In this document: piece after piece, positions 13,481 through 44,947 of the stretch | Position numbering within the stretch: the stretch's first letter is position 1 | Layout of the letters: every line of letters begins with the position of its first letter | Assembly (NCBI GenBank): GCA_016874295.1 | Contig: VGUH01000013.1 | Span: 1-64,000, forward strand | Source: Gammaproteobacteria bacterium | Lineage (GTDB): Bacteria > Pseudomonadota > Gammaproteobacteria > Steroidobacterales > Steroidobacteraceae | Direction: 5' to 3' | DNA length: 64,000 nt | Made by a program: the position numbers and the translations under genes | Notes under the pieces: model-generated | Database searches by the model: none | What the model saw: the letters and a program-made list of their open reading frames with translations, nothing else | Told to the model about the DNA's origin: nothing

Positions 13481-15868
13481 ATGCGTGCTAGCAACGGTGC
13501 GGTCGTCGGTTCTATTGGCATGTTCTCCTTCAGCTTGCTGTTGCCGGCAGGCGCGCAGGCACAGAATCCGCAGGCGACCGCGCTTGAGGAAATCACGGTA
13601 ACGGCCCGCAAGCGCGCCGAATCCGTCAGCGAGATCCCGGAATCCATCACCGCTTTGTCGGGCGACGACGTACAACAGGCCGGCATCGAGCGGATCGACG
13701 ACATCTCGGGGTTCGTGTCGAACCTGAATCTGTCGACAAGGGCGGATGGCAATCCGAACGTGACGATCCGCGGAATGGGCTCGCACGGCAACACGCAGGG
13801 TGTCGGATTCTATCTGGATGGTGTGCAGATCTATACGGACGCGTCGGCGCGATTCGGGGACATCGAGCGTCTTGAAGTGCTGAAAGGCCCGCAAGGCACC
13901 TTGTATGGTGGCAGCAACATCGGCGGAGCCGTTAAGCTGGTCACGGTGCGGCCTGACCTCACCGATGCTTTATTCGAAGCGGTCGCCACGTTCGGCGACG
14001 AGAGTACGCAGGACTATTCGGCGACGATCAATCTGCCGACCGGCAACGGTCGCGCTGCCCTGCGGCTTTTCGGCTACTACGTAGCCGACGACGGGTACCT
14101 TGTTTCGAACAATCCGATTCGCCTGAACGGTCTTTCCAATGCGGACATCGTTTTCTGGCCGTCCGTCGACGTCTGCGGCATCCCCTTCGATTTCGGGACT
14201 GAACCGCAGAACTCGCCTTGCGAGGAACTGCCGAACATCGCCGAACGCTGGCGCAGGCACCCGAATGAACGCGAGGAATACGGTGCCCGCTTGCAGTTCC
14301 TGGTCAACCTGACGGACGACGTGGAGCTCGTGCTCTCAGGGCGCATCTACGATTTTGACGGCGGAAACAATAACTGGCGCGTCGAGGACCCCGATGACCT
14401 GCAGTACAGCCGCGAGCGTGAGCTGACTTTCGCGGGTCGCCGGCGGCATGAAGTCTAGGCCGCGACCGCGGAACTGAACTGGGACGCAGGTCCGGGCACC
14501 GTCAGCTATCTGGGCTCCTACACGAACATGGATCGTGAGGATACGACAGATCTCGATGTTACCAATGAAGTCGGCTTCGACCTCTACAGGCCCGAGTGGA
14601 CGCAGTTCCAGACGCACGAGATTCGCATGACTTCGAGCGGCGCTGGCCCGTTTGAGTGGCTGGGCGGGCTCTACTACTCCTTGAAGAAGAATGACTGGAA
14701 CTCCTTCGCAAACTTCTACGAGACCACCAGCGTGCTCACCGGCGCTCCGTTCGGCCCCGGCGGGAGCATCCTTCAGCCGGGCCCCTTGGGAATTCTCGAC
14801 ACGATACTCGGAGACACGTCGCTGCCTCCGACGCTCGCGCAAGAACAGGCGGTCAGGATCTATTTTCCGTTCGAGAACAGGTATCGCGAGACGGAGCACG
14901 TGGCTGCCTTCCTGACGACGAGCTATCGATTCCAGACCGGATGGGAACTGGGTTTCGGGCTTCGAGTCGATGATTGGACCGCCAACACGCGCGACCGCAA
15001 TGCCACGCTCTACGGCACCAATACGCCGTTCCTGGAGCAGGGCGATACGGAAGTGCTGCCAAAGGCCTCGGTAAGCTACTTCTTCGGCGGCGGTGCCATG
15101 GCGTACGTGACATACGCACAGGGCTATGAACCCGGCGGGTACAACCTCTACAACCCGGTCGGCGTGCCGCTCCTGAACCCATTCTCCAAAGAGGAGGTCG
15201 AAAGCTACGAGGTAGGATTCAAGACGCTGATTGCGGAAAATTTCGAGTTGGGCGCCGCCGCGTTCTTCATCGACTATACTGCGCGACAGTTCGAGATCCA
15301 GCAGCAGATCGCAATCGGCGGTATCGTCGAGAATATCATTAATGTCGGAGACAGCGAGCAATACGGCGTCGAAGCCGACTTTCGCTGGCGCATCAACGAG
15401 TACCTGTCGCTGACCGGTTCCGCGGGCTGGCTGGATGCGGAGTTCAAACCGGGTGCGGTCATAGTGGACACGAACAGCAACCTCGCCTCAGTGGACGGAA
15501 ATTTCCCGCCCTGGATAAGCGATTACAGCTACAGCACTTCCATACGGTACGACAGGCCCGTGGGCAGCGCCATGGAGTTGCACGCCAGGATTGATTGGCT
15601 CGGGAAAAGTCCATTCTGGTTCAACATGGAGAATACGGCGCGTAACCCCGGCTACGATGTCTTCAATGTTCAAGTTGAACTCGACCTCAATGAACATTGG
15701 ACGGTCGGCATCCGCGCGGAGAACGTATTTGACGAGGATCACTACGTCGACGGCTCCATCTGGCCGGGGGATGCGGTTCCCGGTACGCCTGCGCCCGACT
15801 TCGACCCGGTGATAGGTACGCTCGGTCAGCCGCGAAAGGTTTTGGCTGAAGTTCGCGCCCGCTTCTGA
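13481..15868 (+). pseudogene. TonB-dependent outer-membrane receptor interrupted by one in-frame TAG
   Basis: The frame reads continuously as a receptor of about 795 codons except for a single TAG at 14456-14458. Before it are a signal peptide (LLLPAGAQA), a TonB-box-like EEITVTARKRAE and a plug domain (VTIRGMGS, LEVLKGPQGTLYGG). After it are beta-barrel strands with the C-terminal signatures ENVFDEDHYVDG and QPRKVLAEVRARF, ending in the aromatic Phe needed for outer-membrane insertion. Both halves are in the same frame with no gap, so the lesion is one base substitution. TAG is an ordinary stop codon elsewhere in this window. Receptors of this class import siderophores, vitamin B12 or plant and animal polymers; the ligand is unknown. 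The ATG at 13481 has a G-rich site upstream. Confidence 0.8.
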
Positions 15869-29035: not shown

Positions 29036-29440
29036 TCAGGGTGTCGCCTGCCACGCGGCGGTCGGGACCTCGCGCGGCACCGGGCGGGTCGTCACGTAGG
29101 TGACCAGCATCCACACGGCATCGGCCGGGAGGATGGCGCCGTAGGCGGGCATGCCGTGCGGGCGACCATGGAAGATCGAGTGAAACACGGCGCCATCGTC
29201 GCCGCCAAAGCGCCAGCGGCCGTCCGCGAGGCTGGGCGCGGTAAATCCCAGCGCTCCACCACCGTGGCAGCCGTCGCAGTTCATGGACGCGAACAACTTC
29301 TCGCCTGCCACAGCCGCATTCGCGTCGCCGGTGTAGGGATTCGACAGGCTCGCGGCGCCGGATGGCACATCAGTCTCCCCGTGCACGAATCCCGCAGGTA
29401 CGAGCAGCGCGGCGATCAGCAGCCCTTTGCAGCACCTCAT
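29036..29440 (-). CDS. Periplasmic c-type cytochrome partner of the PQQ dehydrogenase
   Basis: 134 residues with a signal peptide (CCKGLLIAALLVPAGFVHG) and one heme-binding motif, CDGCH, near residue 52. A Met in the later segment HGMPAYG is the probable sixth ligand. The ATG at 29440 overlaps the TGA of the dehydrogenase gene in an ATGA arrangement, which argues for a 1:1 functional link: it should accept electrons from PQQH2 and pass them to the respiratory chain. It is shorter than MxaG/XoxG (about 170 residues). Confidence 0.82.
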   Translation of the reverse strand: MRCCKGLLIAALLVPAGFVHGETDVPSGAASLSNPYTGDANAAVAGEKLFASMNCDGCHGGGALGFTAPSLADGRWRFGGDDGAVFHSIFHGRPHGMPAYGAILPADAVWMLVTYVTTRPVPREVPTAAWQATP

Positions 29441-31209
29441 AGCGCGAACACCCACACCATTCCGCCCTGGCTCGTGTAGCGCGCGAGGTCGGGCGCGAAA
29501 TCGTTCGTCGGGCGCACGTCGGCCGGGTCCGCCGCGATGATGTCGCCCGCGATCAGCGCCCAGTCACCGCCTATCCCAGAGTAGACGGCGATGTACTGCT
29601 TGCCGTCCGGGCCGCGGTAGCTGATCGGCGCGCCCACGACGCCGGAGCCCACCTTGAACTTCCACAGCGGCTTGCCGTCGCGCGCGTCGACCGCCTTGAA
29701 CCAGCCGTCCAGCGTGCCGTAGAAGGCGACGTCGCCCGCGGTCGCGAGCCCGCCGCTCCACAAGGGGAATTTCTCCCGCACCTCCCAGACCTTGCGGCCG
29801 GTCGCCGCATCCCAGGCGATGAAGGCGCCCAGGTAGCCGCCTGCGCCCGGGTGATAGGGCACGGTCGCGCTGACGAACGGCGTGCCGGGGATGTAGGCGG
29901 CGTCCTCCGACTGCCAGTCCATGCAGAGATTGACCGTGGGCACGTAGAACAGCCGCGTCCGCGCAGAATAGGCTGCCGGCGAGGCCGGGGATTTTCCGCC
30001 TTCCAGGCTGGGGCAGATGTCTTTCACCGGGCCGCGCGACTTGCCGGTGAGCTTGGCTTCGTTCACCACTGGCCGGCCGGTCTTGCGGTCCAAGCCCTTC
30101 GCCCAGTTGAGATGCACGTAGGGCTCCGCGACCAGCACTTCGCCGGTGCGTCGATCCAGCGTGTACGCAAAACCGTTCTTGTCGAAGTGGACCAGCGCCT
30201 TGCGTTCGCGGCCGCCGATCTCCAGGTCCACCAGGATGTTCTCGGCGTTCGCGTCGTAGTCCCAGTTGTCGGCCGGCGTGAACTGGTACGCCCAGACCAG
30301 CGAGCCGTCGCCCGGACGTCGCGCGAGGATGCTCGAGGTCCACTTGTTGTCGCCGATGCGCTGGTCGGCGTTGTACGGCCCCGGGTTGCCGGTGCCGTAA
30401 TACACGAGGTCGAGCTCCGGGTCGTAGGAGAGCCAGCCCCATACCGGGGCGCCGCCGCGCTGCCAGGTGTCGCCCGCCCAGCTCGCCTGGCCGAGATTCT
30501 CGCCGCGGTCGTAGAAGGCCTTGAAGGTGCCGGGCCGCGCCAGGAGCGCGTCGTCTGGCCCGATGTTGCGCGCGCGCCAGGCGATGGCGCCCGTTGCGAG
30601 ATCGAGCCCGATGAACCAGCCGTAGATGCCGAACTCGCCGCCCGATGGCCCGACCAGTACGCGCTCGCCGACTACCAGCGGTGCCATGGTGATCGTCTCG
30701 CCGCGCGCGAGGTCTGCCACCGTGGTCTTCCAGAGCTCCTTGCCGGTGTTCGCATCGATGGCGACGGTGCGCCCGTCCAGCAGGTTGTACACGATGCGGC
30801 CCTGCGCAAATGCGGCCCCGCGGTTTACGGCGTCACAGCAGGCCACGCCGACCGCGGCGCGGTTGGCGTCCGGCCGGTACTTGAAACGCAGCGGGTAATC
30901 TTCTGTCTTGAGGTCGAAGGCATAAAGTACGTTGGGCCAGGGCGTGACCACGTACAGCGTGTCGTTCGCGACCAGGGGTTGGCCCTCGTGGCCGCCCAGC
31001 ACGCCGGTGGAAAAGGACCAGACAGGGCGCAACGCGCCGACGTTGTCGGCGTTGATCTGGTCGAGGGCGCTGTAGCGGGTGGCGGCCAGGTCCTTGCCGG
31101 GGAGGGTCCATTGCCCGTCGTCCGCGGCGCAGGCCGCGCCGGCGAGCAGCGCGAGGCCGAGCGCAGCTGCGCTGTGGAGAGACCGCGTGATCGCGTGTCT
31201 GGTGCTCAC
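29437..31209 (-). CDS. PQQ-dependent alcohol dehydrogenase with lanthanide-type active-site motif
   Basis: 590 residues from a GTG at 31209 (GGGGA upstream), which places the signal peptide SAAALGLALLAGAACA at the N-terminus. It has the beta-propeller W-motifs, the adjacent-cysteine PQQ clamp in VACCDAVNRG, and the catalytic Asp in NWDYDANAEN. The second Asp, two residues after the catalytic one (D-Y-D), is the feature that separates lanthanide-dependent XoxF/PedH enzymes from calcium enzymes with Ala or Ser there. No heme domain is fused; a separate cytochrome c gene follows. The substrate is probably an alcohol or aldehyde. No pqq biosynthesis genes are in the window. Confidence 0.85.
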   Translation of the reverse strand: MSTRHAITRSLHSAAALGLALLAGAACAADDGQWTLPGKDLAATRYSALDQINADNVGALRPVWSFSTGVLGGHEGQPLVANDTLYVVTPWPNVLYAFDLKTEDYPLRFKYRPDANRAAVGVACCDAVNRGAAFAQGRIVYNLLDGRTVAIDANTGKELWKTTVADLARGETITMAPLVVGERVLVGPSGGEFGIYGWFIGLDLATGAIAWRARNIGPDDALLARPGTFKAFYDRGENLGQASWAGDTWQRGGAPVWGWLSYDPELDLVYYGTGNPGPYNADQRIGDNKWTSSILARRPGDGSLVWAYQFTPADNWDYDANAENILVDLEIGGRERKALVHFDKNGFAYTLDRRTGEVLVAEPYVHLNWAKGLDRKTGRPVVNEAKLTGKSRGPVKDICPSLEGGKSPASPAAYSARTRLFYVPTVNLCMDWQSEDAAYIPGTPFVSATVPYHPGAGGYLGAFIAWDAATGRKVWEVREKFPLWSGGLATAGDVAFYGTLDGWFKAVDARDGKPLWKFKVGSGVVGAPISYRGPDGKQYIAVYSGIGGDWALIAGDIIAADPADVRPTNDFAPDLARYTSQGGMVWVFAL

Positions 31210-32200: not shown

Positions 32201-32983
32201 TCAGCGGCCGCGCCAGACCGGCTTGCGCTTCTCGGCAAAGGCGCGGGCGCCTTCCTTCTGGTCCTCGCTCTCGTACAGGGTGTCGACGGTCGGCAGGCTG
32301 CGCCGGGTCACAAGGTTGAAGGCTTGCTGGATCGGCAAGTGCGCCGTTTCGCGCACGATCTCCTTGATCGCGGCAAACACCAGCGGTGGCCCGTTCGCCA
32401 GCTGGTCCGCAAGTGCGCGCGCCTGGTCCAGCAGCCTGGCGGCGGGGACGATCTCCCTGACGATTCCCCAGCGCATCGCTTCGTGCGCGTCGATCGGCCG
32501 TCCCGTCAGCAACAGGTCCATCGCGACGTGGTAGGGGATGTGGCGCGGCAGCTTGATCGACGCGGCGTCGGCAACGGTCCCTGAGTTGATCTCCGGCAGC
32601 GCGAATGTCGCGTGCTCCGCGGCGACGATCAGGTCGCAGGAAAGCGCAATCTCGAATCCGCCGCCGTAGGCGAGGCCGTTGACCGCGCAGATGACCGGCT
32701 TGTTGAGGCCCGGCAATTCCTGCAGTCCGCCGAAACCGCCCACGCCATAGTCGGCGTCGGGCGGCTCGCCGGCGGCGGCGGCCTTGAGGTCCCAGCCCGG
32801 GCAGAAGAACCGCTCGCCGGCGGCGGTCAGGATGGCGACGCGTAGAACCGGGTCGTCACGGAATTCCGCGAACACGCGACCCATGATGCGGCTCGTCGCC
32901 GCGTCTATCGCGTTGACCTTCGGGCGATCGATCGTGACTTCAAGTATTGCGCCGCGGCGCTCGGTCCGTATGGGTTCGGTCAT
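32201..32983 (-). CDS. caiD: Carnitinyl-CoA dehydratase-like enoyl-CoA hydratase
   Basis: 260 residues very like E. coli CaiD as I recall it. Shared stretches are ILEVTIDRP, NAIDAATS, FRDDPVLRVAILT, GWDLKAAA, PDADYGVGGFGGL, and the end AFAEKRKPVW. The two acidic residues expected in the active site are kept (GGGFEIA and FALPEINSG). The reaction would be reversible hydration of crotonobetainyl-CoA to L-carnitinyl-CoA. It is the last gene of a three-gene operon, and its ATG overlaps the TGA of the acyl-CoA synthetase by four bases. With the carnitine dehydrogenase fusion 4 kb away this fits a gamma-butyrobetaine/carnitine route. A role on another enoyl-CoA cannot be excluded. Confidence 0.8.
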   Translation of the reverse strand: MTEPIRTERRGAILEVTIDRPKVNAIDAATSRIMGRVFAEFRDDPVLRVAILTAAGERFFCPGWDLKAAAAGEPPDADYGVGGFGGLQELPGLNKPVICAVNGLAYGGGFEIALSCDLIVAAEHATFALPEINSGTVADAASIKLPRHIPYHVAMDLLLTGRPIDAHEAMRWGIVREIVPAARLLDQARALADQLANGPPLVFAAIKEIVRETAHLPIQQAFNLVTRRSLPTVDTLYESEDQKEGARAFAEKRKPVWRGR

Positions 32984-35016
32984 GTGGGCCTCATCCTGAC
33001 CAGCGCATCGACGGCGATTGCGCGATCCGGCAATACTAGCAAGGGATTGACGTCGAGCTCCTCGAGACGATCGCGGTGGGCCGCGGCCAGCGCGATTACG
33101 GCCTCGACCGCCTGCACGACAGCCGCGCCATCAGCCCGGCGGCCGCGGAAGCCCTCGACCAGCCGCCAGACCCGGAGTCGCCGCAACGACCGCTCGATGT
33201 CCTGCCGCGTCGCGGGCAGCAGCAGCGTGACGGTGTCCGACAGCATCTCGGCGAGCACGCCCCCCGCGCCGATCACCAGCGCCATGCCAAATTGGGGATC
33301 GCGGGTGACACCCACGATCAATTCGGCGACGGCGCCCTCGGCCATGCGTTCCACCAGCACCCGATCACCGAGCGCGACCATCCGGCGGGTTGCCGCGGTC
33401 ACTTCTTCCGGCGACCTGAGCGACAGCGCGACGCCGCCCACGTCACTCTTGTGCGCAATCGCGGCACTGGAGATCTTGACGGCCACCGGGAAGCCCAGGC
33501 GTTCCGCGGCTTGCGGGGCCTCCTCGAGCGCGCACTCGACGGCATCGGGCACGGCAACGCCGAACGAGCGCAGCACCTGCTTGGCCTCGAATTCGCTCAT
33601 TGCCGCCGCCGCCGTGCCATCGCCCGCTCGATGCGGCGGCCAGGGCAGCGCCACCGGCGTGCGCCGGTCGTGGGCGCCGATCCCGGCAGCCGCGGAGAAG
33701 GCGCGCAGCGCGTCGTCGATTCCAATCAGCGGGGCGACTCCCGCCTGGCCGAGTTCACGGGCAAGGTCGGGCGGCATGCCTTCGGGCAGGCTCGCAACGA
33801 CAGCGGCGCGTGTCGCGGTCTCTCGTCGTGCCGCGACGAAGGCCCTTGCGGTCAGCAGCCAGCGGTCCGGTTCCATGGCCGGGTGCGACGGCGTATCTAG
33901 GATCAGCATCGCCGCATCAAACCCGCCGCCGAGCGCGGCGGCGAAAGTGCGAGTGAGCTTCTCGGACTGGCCCCAGATGAACGTGTGGTAGTCGAACGGA
34001 TTGTCCACGTTGACGAGGCCATTCAGCGTAGCGGCGACGCGCTCGGCGGCGGCTGGCGGGAACGGCGGAAACGACAGGCCGAGGTCGAGCGCCAGGTCGG
34101 CCGCGAGCGCCGCTTCGCCGCCCGAGCAGCTTAAGGAAAGCAGGCGGCCGCCGGGCATCGGTCCGCCAAAGTGGAGGAGTTTCAGCGTTTCGACGAGGCT
34201 GGTCAGCGTCGGGACGCGCGCAATGCCGTAGCGCTCGAACAGTGCATCGCAAAGCCGATCCTCTCCGGCCAGGGATGCCGTATGACTCAGCGCGATCCGC
34301 GCGCCCTGCGGCGAACGGCCGGTCTTGAGGGCCACCAGCGGCTTGCCGCGTTCCCGCGCGACGGCGGCTGCCCGGGCAAAGGCCGCAATGTCCCGCAGGC
34401 CCTCGATGTGCATGCCGATGGCGGTGACGCGGGGGTCCTCGGCGAGCGCCTCGACCGCCGCCGCCATGTCGACGTCGGCCTGGTTGCCGAGCGTCAGCAG
34501 CAGAGCGAGCGGCAGGCCCCGCTGCAGCATGGTCAGATTGCAGGCGATATTGCCCGACTGGGTGACGACTGCGACGCCCGAATCGAGCGGCGCCAGGCCG
34601 TGCTCATCGGGCCACAGCGCCACGCGGGCCGCGGCGTTGATGAAGCCGTAGCAGTTCGGGCCTAGCAAGGGCATGCCGGCAGCCGCCGTGAGCAGCGACT
34701 GCTGCAGCTCGCGTTCGCCGCTCTCCGCGAAGCCGGCTGCATAGACCACGGCGCCACCGCAGTCCAGGGCGCGCAACGCCTTCAGCACCTCCGGCGTGGC
34801 GGCGCGGGGCAGCGCGACGAAAGCCGCGTCCGGCGAGCCATCCACATGCCCGGCCGACGGAATGGTTGCAATGCCGCCCAGCCGCGGCCGCCGCGGATTG
34901 ACCGCCCAGATCCGACCCTCGAAGCCCAGCGCCCGGGTCCGTTCGATGGCGATCGCGCACTCGGCGCCGCCGATGAACGCGATCGAGCGCGGATTGAGGA
35001 AGCGTTGCAGCCCCAT
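32980..35016 (-). CDS. ADP-forming acyl-CoA synthetase (acetate-CoA ligase type)
   Basis: 678 residues joining the alpha and beta parts of nucleoside-diphosphate-forming acyl-CoA synthetases. Residues 1-120 are a CoA-binding Rossmann domain (FIGGAE, GPNCYGFIN). Next are two succinyl-CoA ligase-like domains (VVTQSGNIACNL, SHTASLAGEDRLCDALF with the phosphohistidine region). From about residue 460 comes an ATP-grasp domain (PVAVKISSAAIAHKSDVGGV). It could activate a carboxylate, for example gamma-butyrobetaine, in place of the AMP-forming CaiC. Its ATG follows the acyl-CoA dehydrogenase TGA with no spacing. Confidence 0.85.
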   Translation of the reverse strand: MGLQRFLNPRSIAFIGGAECAIAIERTRALGFEGRIWAVNPRRPRLGGIATIPSAGHVDGSPDAAFVALPRAATPEVLKALRALDCGGAVVYAAGFAESGERELQQSLLTAAAGMPLLGPNCYGFINAAARVALWPDEHGLAPLDSGVAVVTQSGNIACNLTMLQRGLPLALLLTLGNQADVDMAAAVEALAEDPRVTAIGMHIEGLRDIAAFARAAAVARERGKPLVALKTGRSPQGARIALSHTASLAGEDRLCDALFERYGIARVPTLTSLVETLKLLHFGGPMPGGRLLSLSCSGGEAALAADLALDLGLSFPPFPPAAAERVAATLNGLVNVDNPFDYHTFIWGQSEKLTRTFAAALGGGFDAAMLILDTPSHPAMEPDRWLLTARAFVAARRETATRAAVVASLPEGMPPDLARELGQAGVAPLIGIDDALRAFSAAAGIGAHDRRTPVALPWPPHRAGDGTAAAAMSEFEAKQVLRSFGVAVPDAVECALEEAPQAAERLGFPVAVKISSAAIAHKSDVGGVALSLRSPEEVTAATRRMVALGDRVLVERMAEGAVAELIVGVTRDPQFGMALVIGAGGVLAEMLSDTVTLLLPATRQDIERSLRRLRVWRLVEGFRGRRADGAAVVQAVEAVIALAAAHRDRLEELDVNPLLVLPDRAIAVDALVRMRPT

Positions 35017-36180
35017 TCAGGCGCCGAGCGGACGCAGCAGCGCGCGCGAGATGATGTGTCGCTGGATTTCCGACGTGCCTTCCCAGATGCGTTCGACCCG
35101 GGCGTCGCGCCAGATTCGCTCCAGCGGCAGGTCGGCCATCAGGCCCATGCCGCCGTGGATCTGGATCGCTTCGTCCGCGACGAAGGCCAGGACCTCGGTC
35201 GCCTTCAGCTTGGCCATCGCCATGTCCGCGTCGGTCACGGTGCCCTGGTCGGCTTTCCAGGCCGCTTCCAGGGTCAGCAGTTCCGCGGCCTTGAGCTCCA
35301 TCGCCATGTCGGCGAGCTTGAAGGAGACGCCCTGGAACTTGCCGATCTGCTGGCCGAACTGCCTGCGTTCGGCGGCCCAGCGGATGGCGAGATCCAGGGC
35401 GCGGTCGGCGCGACCGAGACAGGTTGCGGCGACCTGCAGGCGCGTGGCGCCGAGCCACTGGTTGGCGACGTCAAAGCCGCGATGCAACTCACCGAGAATC
35501 TGCGACTTGTGAATGCGGCAATTGTCGAACCGCAGGATGCTGTTGTGATAACCGCGGTGCGAGACGCTGCGGTATCCGTCATCGATCGACAACCCGGGAG
35601 TGTCGCGGTCGATCAGGAAGGCCGTGATCAGGCTGCGCGGCCCGCGCGCCGTCGGTTCCTCGCCGCTCGCGGCGAACAGCACGATGAAGCTCGCTTCGTC
35701 CGCGTGGCTGATGAAGTGCTTGGTGCCGTTGATCACGAAATCGTCGCCGTCGGGCAACGCCCGGGTCTTCATGCTGCGCAGATCGGAGCCGACGTCGGGT
35801 TCCGACATCGCGAGGCAATCGGACCTCTCGCCGCGGATGGCCGGCAGCAGATACCGCTCGCGCTGGGCACCTTGGCAGGCGAGCAGGATGTTCGAGGGCC
35901 GGGCGACGCAGGTCCAGTGCAGGGCATAGTTCGCGCGCCCCAGCTCCTTCTCGTAGAGAATCCAGGTCAGCGTGTCGAGCCCGGCGCCGCCTTCCGCGAC
36001 GGGCATGTTGGCCGCGTACAGGCCGGCCGCCTGCGCCCTGCGCTTCAGCTCGTCGCGCAATTCGGGCCGCAGCCTGCCGGTCGCCTCGATTTCGGCTTCG
36101 TGCGGGTAGAGCTCGCGGACCACGAAGGATCTCGTCGTCTCGACGATCAGGCGCTGCTCATCGGTCAGGGCAAAGTGCAT
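35017..36180 (-). CDS. Acyl-CoA dehydrogenase
   Basis: 387 residues with the full ACAD fold. N-terminal FALTDEQRLIVETTRSF is followed by the FAD/substrate segment CLAMSEPDVGSDLRSMKTRA, INGTKHFISHAD, and the C-terminal RIWRDARVERIWEGTSEIQR. That last block carries the Glu catalytic base in the W-E-G-T-S-E-I-Q pattern of short-chain enzymes. The ATG at 36180 fits the family start; upstream codons are non-homologous. It is first in the operon with the CoA ligase and CaiD-like hydratase, so it may oxidise gamma-butyrobetainyl-CoA to crotonobetainyl-CoA. A divergent promoter region (36181-36263) separates it from the carnitine genes. Confidence 0.87.
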   Translation of the reverse strand: MHFALTDEQRLIVETTRSFVVRELYPHEAEIEATGRLRPELRDELKRRAQAAGLYAANMPVAEGGAGLDTLTWILYEKELGRANYALHWTCVARPSNILLACQGAQRERYLLPAIRGERSDCLAMSEPDVGSDLRSMKTRALPDGDDFVINGTKHFISHADEASFIVLFAASGEEPTARGPRSLITAFLIDRDTPGLSIDDGYRSVSHRGYHNSILRFDNCRIHKSQILGELHRGFDVANQWLGATRLQVAATCLGRADRALDLAIRWAAERRQFGQQIGKFQGVSFKLADMAMELKAAELLTLEAAWKADQGTVTDADMAMAKLKATEVLAFVADEAIQIHGGMGLMADLPLERIWRDARVERIWEGTSEIQRHIISRALLRPLGA

Positions 36181-36263
36181 GATACCCGCTCGTTCGCCGG
36201 TCTCCCGGGATGCGTGGCATGATTGTGCCCTACAAATCGGATTTCGACGACAGACGAGCCTCC

Positions 36264-37184
36264 ATGCCATTACAAATGAATCGCGAGGTCTTCATCACCT
36301 GCGCCCTGACCGGTTCCGGCGCGACGCAGGAACGTTCCGCGCATGTGCCCCGTGCGCCGCGGGACATCGCCGCCAGCGCGATCGCCGCGGCGAAGGCCGG
36401 CGCCGCCGTCGTGCATTGCCATGTCCGCGATCCGGTGTCCGGCAAGCCGAGTCGCGACCCGAAACTGTATCGCGAGGTGACGGACCGCATCCGCGACTCG
36501 GATACCGACGTCGTGATCAACCTGACCGCCGGCATGGGCGGCGACCTGGTGCTCGGGCCGCCCGAGGCGCCGCTGCCCGTGAACCCGGTGGGAACCGACA
36601 TGGGCAGCGCAACGAGCCGCATGGAGCCGATCGCCGACTGCCTGCCCGAAATCTGCACGCTGGATTGCGGCACGATGAATTTCGCCGAGGCGGACTACGT
36701 GATGACCAATACGCCCGCCATGTTGCGGACCATGGGCGGCATGATGAATGCGCTCGGCGTGCGACCGGAGGTCGAGGCCTTCGATACGGGGCACTTGTGG
36801 TTCGCGAAACGCCTGTTCGAGGAGGGCGTGCTGCAGGGTCCGGCACTGGTCCAGCTCTGCATGGGCGTGCCGTGGGGAGCGCCCAACGACCTCAACACCT
36901 TGCTGGCCATGGTCAACAACGTGCCGGCCGACTGGACGTGGTCCGCATTCACCCTGGGGCGTGAGCAGATGGCCTATGTCGCGGCCGCCGTGCTCGCCGG
37001 GGGCAATGTCCGCGTCGGCCTGGAAGACAACCTGTGGCTCAACAAGGGCGTGCTGGCGCGCAACGAGCAGCTCGTGGAACGCGCCGTCGGGATCATCGAG
37101 CGCATGGGCTCCCGCGTGCTGACGCCTGCCGAGGTGCGCCGCAAGCTCGGTTTGACCAAGCGTGCTCCGGTCGCGCGCGCATGA
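36264..37184 (+). CDS. BKACE family beta-keto acid cleavage enzyme (DUF849), CdhC-like
   Basis: 306 residues. The zinc-binding pair is in VVHCHVRDPVSGKPS near residue 50. NLTAGMGG, the segment ending in MNFA, and the C-terminal VRVGLEDNLWLNKG are standard for the family. BKACE enzymes transfer the acyl part of a beta-keto acid to acetyl-CoA, giving acetoacetate and a new CoA thioester. CdhC of the carnitine pathway converts 3-dehydrocarnitine to glycine betainyl-CoA. That role is supported here by the overlapping carnitine dehydrogenase gene. The start could also be the ATG at 36276. Confidence 0.82.
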   Translation: MPLQMNREVFITCALTGSGATQERSAHVPRAPRDIAASAIAAAKAGAAVVHCHVRDPVSGKPSRDPKLYREVTDRIRDSDTDVVINLTAGMGGDLVLGPPEAPLPVNPVGTDMGSATSRMEPIADCLPEICTLDCGTMNFAEADYVMTNTPAMLRTMGGMMNALGVRPEVEAFDTGHLWFAKRLFEEGVLQGPALVQLCMGVPWGAPNDLNTLLAMVNNVPADWTWSAFTLGREQMAYVAAAVLAGGNVRVGLEDNLWLNKGVLARNEQLVERAVGIIERMGSRVLTPAEVRRKLGLTKRAPVARA

Positions 37185-38641
37185 GTCGGCAGGCGGCAAT
37201 CATCGGCGGCGGCGTCATCGGGGGTGGCTGGCTGGCGAGGTTTCTGCTCAATGGCTGGGATGTCGCCATCTTCGATCCCGACCCCGAGGCCGAGCGCAAG
37301 ATTTCCGAAGTGCTGGCGAACGCACGGCGCTCGCTGCCGGGACTCTACGATGCCGCCCTGCCGCCTGAAGGGCAGCTGCGCTATAGCCGCACGATCGAGG
37401 ACGCCGTCCGCGACGCGCAGTGGATCCAGGAGTCCGTTCCCGAGCGGCTCGAGCTGAAGCACGATGCGCTGAGGAAGATCCAGGCCGCCGCGAGCGCCGG
37501 CGCGGTCGTCGGTTCCTCGACCTCGGGCTTCAAACCCTCGGATCTGGGCGCCCGCCTGCAGCGGCCCGGGCAGGTGCTGGTGGCGCACCCGTTCAATCCG
37601 GTCTACCTGCTGCCGCTGGTCGAAGTCGTGCCGCACGCCGGTGCGGAGCCCGCCTTCGTCGAGCGGGCGATGGAGACGCTGCGCTCGATTGGCATGATGC
37701 CGCTGCATCTGCGCCGCGAAATCGACGCGCACGTGGCCGATCGCCTGCTCGAGTCCGTCTGGCGCGAGGCGCTCTGGCTCGTCAAGGACGACGTCGCCAC
37801 CACCTCCGACATCGACGATGCGATCCGCTTCGGCTTCGGCATCCGCTGGGCGCAGATGGGTCTGTTCGAGACCTATCGCATTGCGGGGGGTGAGGCGGGG
37901 ATGGCGCATTTTCTGGCGCAGTTCGGCCCCTGCCTGCAATGGCCCTGGACCCGGCTGACCGACGTTCCCGACCTGGATGCGACCCTGATCGGAAAGATCT
38001 CGAGCCAGTCCGATACCCAGTCGGGCGCGCGCAGCATCCGTGAGCTCGAGCGCCTGCGCGACGACAACCTCGTGGCGATGATGCGCGCGCTGAAGGGCCG
38101 CGACTGGGCGTCCGGCCGTACGCATCGCGAGCATGATGCACGGCTGCGCGGTCGGGTTGCCGCACCCGACTGGTCGCAGCCGGTCGAGACCGCAGCGCGT
38201 ACCGTGCCGGTGGACTGGACCGACCCTGACGGACACATGAACGAGGCGCGCTACTGCGAATTGTTCAGCGATGCGGCGGACCGTTTGCTTGAACTGATCG
38301 GTTGCGATTCCGGCGTCCCGGCCCGTGGTGGCCGCTACGTCACGGCCGAATCACATCTGCAGCGCCTCGCAGAGGCGCGGTTGGCCGACCGCGTGCGTGT
38401 AACGACCCAGTTGCTCGCCAGCGCCGGGGACAGGCTGCACCTTTTCAGCAGGATGCACGCCGCGGGCGGGCGGTTGCTTGCCACGGCGGAACAGCTGCTG
38501 GTCCACGTCACGCTGGCCACGCGGCGTGCATCGCCGCCCGCCGAGGCCCTGCAAGCGAGACTGCGCGAGATCCAGTCGCTGCACGCCGCATTGCCGCGGC
38601 CCGAAGCCCTGTATTGTGGACGGAAGACGCCGGGCGGCTGA
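37181..38641 (+). CDS. L-carnitine 3-dehydrogenase fused to a betainyl-CoA thioesterase (CdhA-CdhB type)
   Basis: 486 residues in two parts. Residues 1-320 are a 3-hydroxyacyl-CoA dehydrogenase-type NAD enzyme (AAIIGGGVIGGGWLARF; the active-site His in VAHPFNPVYLLPLVEVV). Residues 340-480 are a hotdog thioesterase (VPVDWTDPDGHMNEARY). This two-domain architecture is known for L-carnitine dehydrogenases (EC 1.1.1.108). The first part oxidises carnitine to 3-dehydrocarnitine and the second hydrolyses betainyl-CoA to betaine. The ATG overlaps the TGA of the BKACE gene (ATGA), so all three activities are translationally coupled. Confidence 0.85.
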   Translation: MSRQAAIIGGGVIGGGWLARFLLNGWDVAIFDPDPEAERKISEVLANARRSLPGLYDAALPPEGQLRYSRTIEDAVRDAQWIQESVPERLELKHDALRKIQAAASAGAVVGSSTSGFKPSDLGARLQRPGQVLVAHPFNPVYLLPLVEVVPHAGAEPAFVERAMETLRSIGMMPLHLRREIDAHVADRLLESVWREALWLVKDDVATTSDIDDAIRFGFGIRWAQMGLFETYRIAGGEAGMAHFLAQFGPCLQWPWTRLTDVPDLDATLIGKISSQSDTQSGARSIRELERLRDDNLVAMMRALKGRDWASGRTHREHDARLRGRVAAPDWSQPVETAARTVPVDWTDPDGHMNEARYCELFSDAADRLLELIGCDSGVPARGGRYVTAESHLQRLAEARLADRVRVTTQLLASAGDRLHLFSRMHAAGGRLLATAEQLLVHVTLATRRASPPAEALQARLREIQSLHAALPRPEALYCGRKTPGG

Positions 38642-40563: not shown

Positions 40564-40740
<177 letters not shown>

Positions 40741-41407
40741 CCAAAACTGGCTGTCCCGGATTTCCGGGCCGGACGAACGACGCCATCCGACACGTCGAAA
40801 AGCACGGCCACACGGAGGGAGACGCGCCAGCCTTTCCGACCGGCGTTGCAGGCTTTTAGCGAGTGCCGGCCGACTCTGGGGGTTCGAGCTCATTCCAATC
40901 TCGCTCAGCGGGTCGAAGCCGGGCGGCAGCTCGGCCGTTCCCTCCGGGAAGCCGTTTCGCTCCAGGATATAGGCCAGTATATCGGCGTACGTGTTGGCAG
41001 TCAGATTGCGCCGGTCCTTGCGCTTTGGCGGCATCTCGGTCTGCATGAAGTCGAACAGGTCGCCCAGCGTCCAGTTGACCCAGTTGGACAGAAACTCCTC
41101 ACCCACCAGCGCGGGCGCATCCTCACCAAAATCCCCGGACAGGTCTCGCAGGTGACAACGCTTGCAATGTTCGAGGTACTGCGCCTCGCCGCGCCGGCTT
41201 TGCTCGTTGGAATAGACGCCGTCCCGAACCGAGGTGCTCGTCGCCAGGAGGCTGGCGGACGGAACCGTATCCGGCAGCAATGGCCGGCCTGTTACCTGCG
41301 CGCAGGCAGAAAAGACCAGCACGGCGGTAACGACGCAGATCGACGCGATACCCCCCGGCGCCCTTCTGGCAGCGGATAATCCGACCACGGCGCTGCGCAT
41401 TGGGCGC

Positions 41408-42831
41408 TCAAGCCTTCGCGATCTCTCGCATGTACCACGCGGCAAAGCCTGACGGCTCTTCCTCGTGAACGGAGTAACGGCCGGACCGGTAACCGCCCGA
41501 TTTGGTGCCAACGTGATTGTTCTCGACGATCCAGGCGTCTTCCTTGATGGTGATATCCCACAGCGCCATTAGCCTATCCGGATGGTAGTCCCTGCCTGCT
41601 TCAGCTTCAGGATGCACTAACCAGAGTATTTCGCTGTCCGTCAGCTCGGGGCCTCGCGGCGTGAACCGAACGACTGCCACGTGGTCGTCGTAAGCCTGCC
41701 AGTAGCCGGTCGAATAACCGGTTATGCCGATCGCTGTGTCGTGTGTCCAGTCCTTGATGCCCGGAAGCAAGGGCGCCAGTGGTTTGCCGTCCAGCGATCC
41801 GGTTAGGAATCCCGGATTCAGCGCGCCGTCATACGGCCCTCCGGAACCCGTTCCCTTGTCCGCGGCGAGCTCCGGCCCGAGCCAGTCGGCGACTCGGCTG
41901 TCGTGACGCTGCTGGCGCGCATCCGACAGGCTGTAGTCCCAGTTATGGGTGGTCACCAGGTTCTGGTGCGCGGGACCGCAGTGATAGCACTCGAGAAAAT
42001 TCTCGAGCGCCAGTTTCCAGTTGGCCCTGATGGGATACTGCTGTCGGGCGCCGACCTTCAGATCCGCCAGCCCATACCGTGCAGCGACGTTCCTGAAGCC
42101 GTATGCAGTGATCGCATCGAAGTCCGGCGGCGTCTCGCTGCGGGAGAAGTTCAGAAATATATGGCCTTCTTCCACGCGCATATGGCACGGAACCAGGCCG
42201 TTGGCGTTCATGTCGAAATCTTCGTGGACATCGTATGCTTCGATGAGGCTGCCGCCCAGATCGTACATCCAGGCGTGATATGGGCAGCGATCACCTGGGC
42301 GTTGCCACTCTCCCCTAGTTGGCGGACCGACAGCCGCTCGTCCTCCGGTCGGGGATCTCCGTCGTGCCGGCACAGGCGTGATCCGCGATGACGGCAGACG
42401 TTGTTGAATGCCCGGATGTTTCCTGACTCGTCGCGCAGGACGATGACACTCTCGCCGAGGCCGAACTTGAACACGAAGTAATCGCCGGTGTCCGGAATCC
42501 GGCTCGCGTGGTCGGCGAGGAGCCAGAAGTTTTCGGCGATATAGCGCTCGTCCTTCTTGTAATGCTCGTCGTCGTAATAGTATTCGGCCGGTATCGTGCG
42601 GCCCGCCCGCCATTCCTTTGAAGTTTCACTGTTGGCAGCGGCGGCTCGAGCCGGCTTCACGTCGGCTGACCGGGATGCGGCGTAACCGGCGTCGGGCATC
42701 GCAAATGCGGCTGCGGCGCCGGCGGCGACAGTCGTCTTGGCGAAATCGCGGCGACTCAATACCCGCCTGGCGCGCTTCACGCCGCTCGCCCCCGGAAACC
42801 GCGAATTTTCTTCGTCCTTCTTCATGGTCAT
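41408..42831 (-). pseudogene. Tat-signal Rieske oxygenase alpha subunit with a frameshift
   Basis: Two overlapping frames join into one protein of about 474 residues. The first (from the ATG at 42831, with GAGG upstream) has a twin-arginine signal LSRRDFAKTTVAAG, then NNVCRHRGSRLC, the first Rieske half. The second frame resumes with CPYHAWMYDLGG, the second Rieske half, and continues with the mononuclear iron site ENFLECYHCGPAHQN to the end. One base is missing near 42286 (between GATCGC and TGCCC on the minus strand). Choline, betaine and carnitine-type monooxygenases share this E-C-Y-H-C site, but the substrate is unknown. A Tat signal is unusual because ring-hydroxylating oxygenases are normally cytosolic. 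Confidence 0.75.
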
Positions 42832-44835: not shown

Positions 44836-44947
44836 GGTGGCTCGCGCCGGTTCCTCCGCGACGATCAGTCGTGAACCCCGCCAGGTCCGGAAGGAAGCAA
44901 CGGTAGCGGCGGCATCGGGTGCCGGAGGGGTGCTGGCGCGGGCCGCC
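44836..44947 (+). ncRNA. ffs: Signal recognition particle 4.5S RNA
   Basis: The universally conserved loop sequence CAGGTCCGGAAGGAAGCA (44882-44899, with the GGAA tetraloop) is present. The flanks fold into one long hairpin: GGCTCGCGCCGG pairs with the CTGGCGCGGGCC region, and TTCCTCCG pairs with CGGAGGGG. ffs precedes dnaX in many gammaproteobacteria. The ends are set by pairing and are accurate to a few bases. Confidence 0.9.

Follow-up and report, generated by a model that had tools for sequence, protein, structure and literature searches.

The dehydrogenase and its cytochrome

The window analysed here, a stretch of 64,000 nucleotides from contig VGUH01000013.1 of a gammaproteobacterial genome placed in the Steroidobacteraceae, contains a gene for a PQQ-dependent dehydrogenase (P0001) and, directly downstream of it, a gene for a small cytochrome c (P0002). 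Both are listed in Table 1 together with the residues discussed below. The reading frame of P0001 is open upstream of 31209 as far as 31356, and the Sec-type leader favours the start at 31209. With 606.9 bits against a cut-off of 480.05, the protein belongs to the TIGR03075 family (PQQ-dependent dehydrogenase, methanol/ethanol family). It stays below the cut-off of the acido-empty-quinoprotein group A model (TIGR04528; 292.8 of 650 bits). The best PDB matches were all XoxF enzymes (4MAE, 617 bits; 7O6Z, 526; 6OC5, 520; 6DAM, 495), followed by the MxaF-type enzyme 4TQO (474 bits). An AF2 model, built from an input of 30 sequences of the clade described below and its relatives, reached a pLDDT of 85.1 and a pTM of 0.89, with a mean pLDDT of only 59 for residues 311-320, and its best fold matches 6FKW, 4MAE and 6OC5 were tied at a Z of about 55. 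By sequence and by predicted fold, P0001 is nearest to the XoxF methanol dehydrogenases (MDHs). The host genome (2.37 Mb, 98.83% complete) encodes one such dehydrogenase.

Table 1 Coordinates of the features considered in this study (positions in the window)
Feature	Position	Strand	Basis or remark
PQQ-dependent dehydrogenase (P0001), XoxF/MDH ancestry, 590 aa	29437-31209	(-)	GTG start, Sec-type leader, TIGR03075
C124-C125 codons, adjacent-Cys motif	30835-30840	(-)	alignment
E192 codon, metal ligand (MxaF E177)	30634-30636	(-)	Glu in 142/142 rows
N275 codon, metal ligand (MxaF N261)	30385-30387	(-)	Asn in 141/142 rows
Y279 codon, replaces Trp of MxaF W265 (second shell)	30373-30375	(-)	alignment
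D317 codon, catalytic Asp (MxaF D303)	30259-30261	(-)	Asp in 142/142 rows
D319 codon, lanthanide-ligand Asp position (MxaF position 305)	30253-30255	(-)	alignment
K344 codon, replaces Arg of MxaF R331 (second shell)	30178-30180	(-)	alignment
D549 codon, Asp inserted ahead of MxaF W540 or substituting for it	29563-29565	(-)	GGD motif
Small mono-haem cytochrome c (P0002), 139 aa	29036-29455	(-)	PF13442, 49.2 bits
CDGCH haem-binding motif of P0002	29264-29278	(-)	translation
TonB-dependent receptor, about 845 codons	13331-15868	(+)	one in-frame stop near 14456-14458

The ORF of P0002 overlaps that of the dehydrogenase by 19 nt, which suggests that the two are probably translated together, and P0002 is likely to be the electron acceptor of P0001. 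A coupled small cytochrome c had been proposed when the window was read from its sequence alone, and the overlapping CDGCH ORF bears this out. On the curated model of cytochrome c(L) MoxG, P0002 reached only 38 of 147.8 bits, far below the cut-off, and the protein is therefore named here simply a small cytochrome c. It is a separate ORF; the fused C-terminal cytochrome c domain that marks quinohaemoprotein ADHs of type II is absent from P0001.

The pairing is a constant feature of the clade. A homologue of the cytochrome lies downstream of the dehydrogenase in all 35 clade loci, in 32 of them as a CxxCH ORF directly after it and in the other three as a tblastn match 0.15-0.67 kb downstream. 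Similarly, in the sister group the CxxCH ORF follows directly in eight of nine loci, and the ninth (L063) has a downstream tblastn match. The ORFs of 48 sequences were clustered: the window, 44 loci of the clade and its sister group, and three longer stretches from genomes that the set already contained. No third conserved neighbour was found across the clade, the next family occurring in only 9 of the 48 once the pair's shadow ORFs were set aside. This includes cox/ctaG and XoxJ genes, none of which were named among the adjacent window proteins scanned. In two loci a second PQQ-dehydrogenase-like ORF (L040:6736-8802 and L041:12751-14187, both on the minus strand) was seen beside the clade gene and on the strand opposite to it; that of L040 begins with a cytochrome c part at its N-terminus, and neither TIGR03075 nor the "empty quinoprotein" model scores it over the cut-off.

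A carnitine-type catabolism cluster is located at 32201-38641 (a crotonobetainyl-CoA hydratase-like protein, an acyl-CoA ligase of the ADP-forming type, an acyl-CoA dehydrogenase, BKACE, and a carnitine 3-dehydrogenase with 713.8 bits, over the cut-off of 592). The Rieske oxygenase ORF at 41408-42613 (-) is related to glycine betaine monooxygenase GbcA, with a score far below the cut-off (134.5 of 670 bits), and adjoins a CxxCH ORF at 40678-41511. A cationic alcohol, suggested as substrate by these adjoining carnitine/betaine-type genes, was dropped because the clade does not share this neighbourhood. The window also contains a tRNA-Ser(CGA) at 40564-40655 (+) and a small SRP RNA at 44845-44941 (+).

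Metal ligands and second shell of the active site

Homologues were taken from an order-wide survey, from the best 80 of 243 relatives among genome contigs and from further fetched stretches, 145 loci including one E. coli stretch. Proteins of 400 aa or longer numbered 134 and, together with P0001, were reduced to 127 distinct rows. A quick tree comprised 140 rows including references and a careful tree 51 rows, whereas residues were counted over 142 aligned rows, with the 15 references counted outside the clade. P0001 was found in a clade of 36 rows with a support of 100 in the quick tree; the 14 clade rows sampled for the careful tree were held together with 100/100. The members are Gemmatimonadota, Gammaproteobacteria (Steroidobacteraceae, Woeseiaceae) and one Bryobacteraceae-labelled MAG, and those drawn from the contigs of relatives' genomes are all titled as MAGs. 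Nine Gemmatimonadota rows form the sister group (100/99 jointly with the clade in the careful tree). P0001 was placed on the XoxF/MxaF side and not among the ADH rows in both trees (a 132-row side with support 100 and a 47-row side with 100/100, respectively). It lies outside the 11-row XoxF3-like group (100/100) which holds the Methylocella tundrae copy, and the wider group joining the two has a support of only 68/50.

The sequence WDYDAN corresponds to residues 316-321 of P0001, with D317 opposite the catalytic D303 of MxaF and D319 opposite A305 (1W6S numbering). The sequence-only reading had put the second Asp of this motif at the lanthanide-ligand position, where calcium enzymes carry Ala or Ser, and the alignment which put this claim at risk left D319 in place. 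The column contains Asp in the XoxF structures 4MAE, 6OC5, 6DAM and 7O6Z and in PedH; the calcium enzymes have Ala in MxaF, which marks calcium MDHs, Ser in ExaA (1FLG) and also Thr in the quinohaemoprotein ADHs 1KV9 and 1KB0. P0001 has the complete ligand set of the four XoxF structures (E192, N275, D317 and D319), and the adjacent-Cys motif noted earlier is present. Since Asp occupies the position of D319 in 124 of the 127 homologues, its presence is not due to chance; the D-x-D motif is a real and conserved feature, but a routine one among the homologues found. PQQ alcohol dehydrogenases are described as the only known lanthanide enzymes (PMC11996626). The same paper records the D-x-D motif in membrane glucose dehydrogenase too, an enzyme able to hold Ca, Mg, Zn or Sr. 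With the motif nearly universal here and present there too, the position of D319 is confirmed as proposed but is no proof of lanthanide use.

What sets the clade apart lies around the ligands. These are all kept in the clade: Glu177 and Asp303 (MxaF numbering) are invariant over the aligned rows, Asn261 is lacking in only one, and position 305 is Asp in 36/36 clade rows and in 98/106 others. Position 265 is Tyr throughout the 36 clade rows, and each of the 106 remaining rows, those of the reference MDHs and ADHs included, has Trp. At position 308, where 99/106 other rows have Asn, the clade has Ala (14), Gly (14) or Gln (8). Position 331 is Lys in 36/36 clade rows, compared with 100 Arg and 6 Lys elsewhere, and GGD stands at the site of Trp540 in 36/36 clade and 9/9 sister rows; the clade list was drawn up with Lys331 and GGD, so that these two clade counts hold by definition, although the tree fork gives the same 36 rows, and only Tyr265, the loss of Asn308 and Asp305 are marks independent of this choice. 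The sister group keeps Trp265, Asn308 and Arg331 in addition to GGD. The clade motif is mostly GGDW, in which MAFFT sets Asp549 as an insertion followed by Trp (W550) in 34/36 rows; a replacement of Trp by Asp and an insertion of Asp before Trp look alike here, and the change of the cavity may be smaller than it appears. Further differences fixed in the clade are Leu295, Leu304 and Tyr452. The sequence-only reading had overlooked that active-site positions other than D319 differ from all reference MDHs.

Trp265 and Trp540 line the methanol cavity, and ADHs of type II oxidise larger alcohols. Table 6 of a density-functional study (PMC8028316) names Trp265 and Arg331 as the residues that partner Glu177 and Asp303 in the second shell of MxaF; in XoxF 6DAM the matching residues Trp289 and Arg354 partner Glu197, Asp327 and Asp329, the lanthanide Asp. 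The Trp265/Arg331 second shell, a criterion which we set from this table rather than a published membership rule, is common to all reference MDHs; P0001 has Tyr279 and Lys344 instead. Both second-shell contacts are thus altered with the ligands kept, and in Lys331 and the missing Asn308 P0001 resembles the ADHs of type II, for which reason we read the substrate as not, or not only, methanol. These two traits, which ADH-type relatives have as well, are also a point against the reading preferred below. A search confined to openly accessible papers found none on these residue changes.

On balance we lean slightly towards reading P0001 as a PQQ alcohol dehydrogenase that descends from XoxF and binds a lanthanide, with a remodelled pocket and a substrate that is probably not methanol, or not methanol alone. 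In the periplasmic enzyme, the metal chelating PQQ would be bound by E192, N275, D317 and D319, and with the extra Asp D319 its native identity would likely be a lanthanide. Once activated by the metal, PQQ would accept a hydride from its alcohol or aldehyde substrate, and the electrons would pass to the cytochrome c of the overlapping gene. Tyr279, Lys344, the lost Asn308 and Asp549 would alter the second shell and the cavity, and hence the natural substrate would probably differ from, or extend beyond, methanol.

A use of Ca2+ or of several metals, with D319 merely inherited and Lys344 relaxing the lanthanide site towards an ADH-type arrangement, seems quite improbable to us. The ADHs 1KV9 and 1KB0, which are Ca-dependent, share the Lys at 331, and the D-x-D of membrane glucose dehydrogenase points the same way; however, D319 is kept throughout the clade and the two ADHs have Thr at its place.

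An ordinary lanthanide MDH of a deep XoxF3-like lineage, in which the residue changes would be neutral or would adjust affinity, is a more serious alternative but still an unlikely one. The 13_1_20CM Gemmatimonadetes MAG (L046), whose name presumably follows the sampling style of Butterfield 2016, falls in the clade, and the weakly supported joint grouping with the XoxF3-like rows fits such a lineage. FrmA is encoded in the host genome (629 bits, over the cut-off), so that formaldehyde formed from methanol could be cleared, which counts against a non-methanol substrate. Moreover, XoxF proteins of soil Gemmatimonadota are described as MDHs and as abundant in soil proteomes (PMC5103831, PMC6784897), a Gemmatimonadetes MDH being reported as the most abundant protein of the soil proteome and one clade as joining Gemmatimonadetes and proteobacterial XoxF (Butterfield 2016, PMC5103831). 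Against this stand Tyr265, fixed in the clade and absent from all other rows, the finding that no C1 genes beside the dehydrogenase-cytochrome pair are conserved across the clade, and the lack of a Fae match in the host genome.

Supply of PQQ and history of the gene

The sequence-only reading had found no pqq genes in the window, with which our scan of part of the window ORFs agrees, as none was named among the proteins, and it had advised looking for them elsewhere in the genome. No PqqB, PqqC or PqqD was found in the 98.83% complete host genome, and the matches to PqqE were all weak, the highest reaching 56 of 381 bits. The same PqqC model exceeded its cut-off in 30 of the 296 genomes of the order. 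The dehydrogenase was detected at E <= 1e-100 in 46 of the 296, among which PqqC was over the cut-off in 26 and not in 20. The 12 clade-bearing genomes of this sample include five with PqqC and seven which lack it and yet keep the gene. In family f7 none of the nine dehydrogenase-bearing genomes had PqqC over the cut-off, so that PQQ scavenging may be general in this family. Judged by the titled MAGs beside which they are placed, f7 appears to be the Woeseiaceae and f1 the Steroidobacteraceae.

PqqU was not found over the cut-off in the host genome either. The best candidate (C2, L146) matches E. coli PqqU first among PDB entries (75 bits), scores 66 of 1200 bits on the PqqU model and lacks the aligned PqqU signature Y99/R304/R365, although the alignment is loose at 23% identity. 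The receptor remnant pointed out earlier in the window exists, its in-frame stop marking it as a pseudogene or an assembly error, but it is not a PqqU: its halves score 24 and 32 of 1200 bits and the aligned letters lack the signature. Its best NCBIfam matches are siderophore models, far below cut-off.

With neither PqqB/C/D/E nor PqqU over the cut-offs, either PQQ would be scavenged or the enzyme would be idle. P0001 may still be the working enzyme which the sequence-only reading took it for, but this claim is weakened by the missing biosynthesis genes and by the interruption of the window's receptor, which is not PqqU. That the protein is idle or cofactor-free in its host, a remnant on the way to loss, we regard as very improbable. 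Besides the missing genes for PQQ, two genus mates of the host lack the dehydrogenase in the order survey, and a relative's copy (G101; L008/L038), 78% identical to that of the host, has two in-frame TAG codons in a genome without PqqC, a case of possible gene decay in a PQQ non-producer. The host frame, however, is intact with all its ligands, and seven PqqC-lacking genomes retain the gene. PQQ is moreover reported to be small enough to cross the outer membrane by diffusion, and its scavenging to be common among quinoprotein bacteria (PMC12124388). In a study of weathered granite and soil, 16 of the 38 genomes with XoxF were reported as able to make PQQ (PMC10875860). Scavenging itself is thus not new, and under our preferred reading of an active lanthanide enzyme PQQ would come from outside the cell.

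The host copy is 76-78% identical to Woeseiaceae-type rows and 75-76% to two Gemmatimonadota rows, with which it groups, and only 64-68% to those of its own family f1, with which it does not. Horizontal transfer of this copy is likely, judging from these relationships. An empty-site comparison in the two genus mates gave no match for the flanking aldolase gene.

Comparison with known systems

We tentatively propose, at somewhat less than even confidence, that the clade, which is widespread and uncultured, is a separate group of lanthanide enzymes with its own second shell (Tyr/Lys/Asp), a non-methanol substrate and often scavenged PQQ, counted until now as XoxF MDHs in surveys of soil. If so, a part of the methanol oxidation ascribed to soil Gemmatimonadota would be something else. 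A clade which keeps the lanthanide ligands and swaps their hydrogen-bond partners offers a natural test of the role of the second shell in the choice of metal and substrate, and it links lanthanide enzymes to PQQ scavengers. It also calls for caution with soil metagenomes, as D-x-D and XoxF homology need not mean methanol oxidation. H4MPT genes lie beside the abundant MDH of Butterfield 2016 (PMC5103831), whereas the present clade has no conserved neighbours beyond the cytochrome.

The closest known enzyme, the XoxF2-type MDH of Methylacidiphilum fumariolicum SolV (4MAE), shares about 50% identity (Z 55.3) and the same metal ligands including D-x-D, but has Trp/Asn/Arg/GGW where P0001 has Tyr/Ala/Lys/GGDW. 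The XoxF3-like group (the Methylocella tundrae plasmid copy, labelled XoxF3 by analogy with PMC6778391, rhizobia and Acidobacteria), to which P0001 is weakly joined, also has D-x-D but keeps W265, R331, N308 and GGW in most rows; XoxF3 is called biochemically untested in a granite study (PMC10875860). The XoxF5 and XoxF3-like clusters taken for comparison contain XoxJ-type, pqq or cytochrome oxidase genes, and the substrate-binding (XoxJ-like), cytochrome oxidase and oxidase-assembly genes beside the XoxF3-like genes are absent as conserved neighbours in the clade. The lanthanide ethanol dehydrogenase PedH (6ZCV) has the D-x-D ligand pair in common with P0001 but is only 34-37% identical and keeps Trp265 and Arg331. 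The quinohaemoprotein ADHs of type IIB (1KV9, 1KB0) resemble P0001 in the Lys at 331, the absence of Asn at 308 and the lack of Trp at 540, but they differ from it in Thr at 305, Trp at 265 and an identity of about 33-35%.
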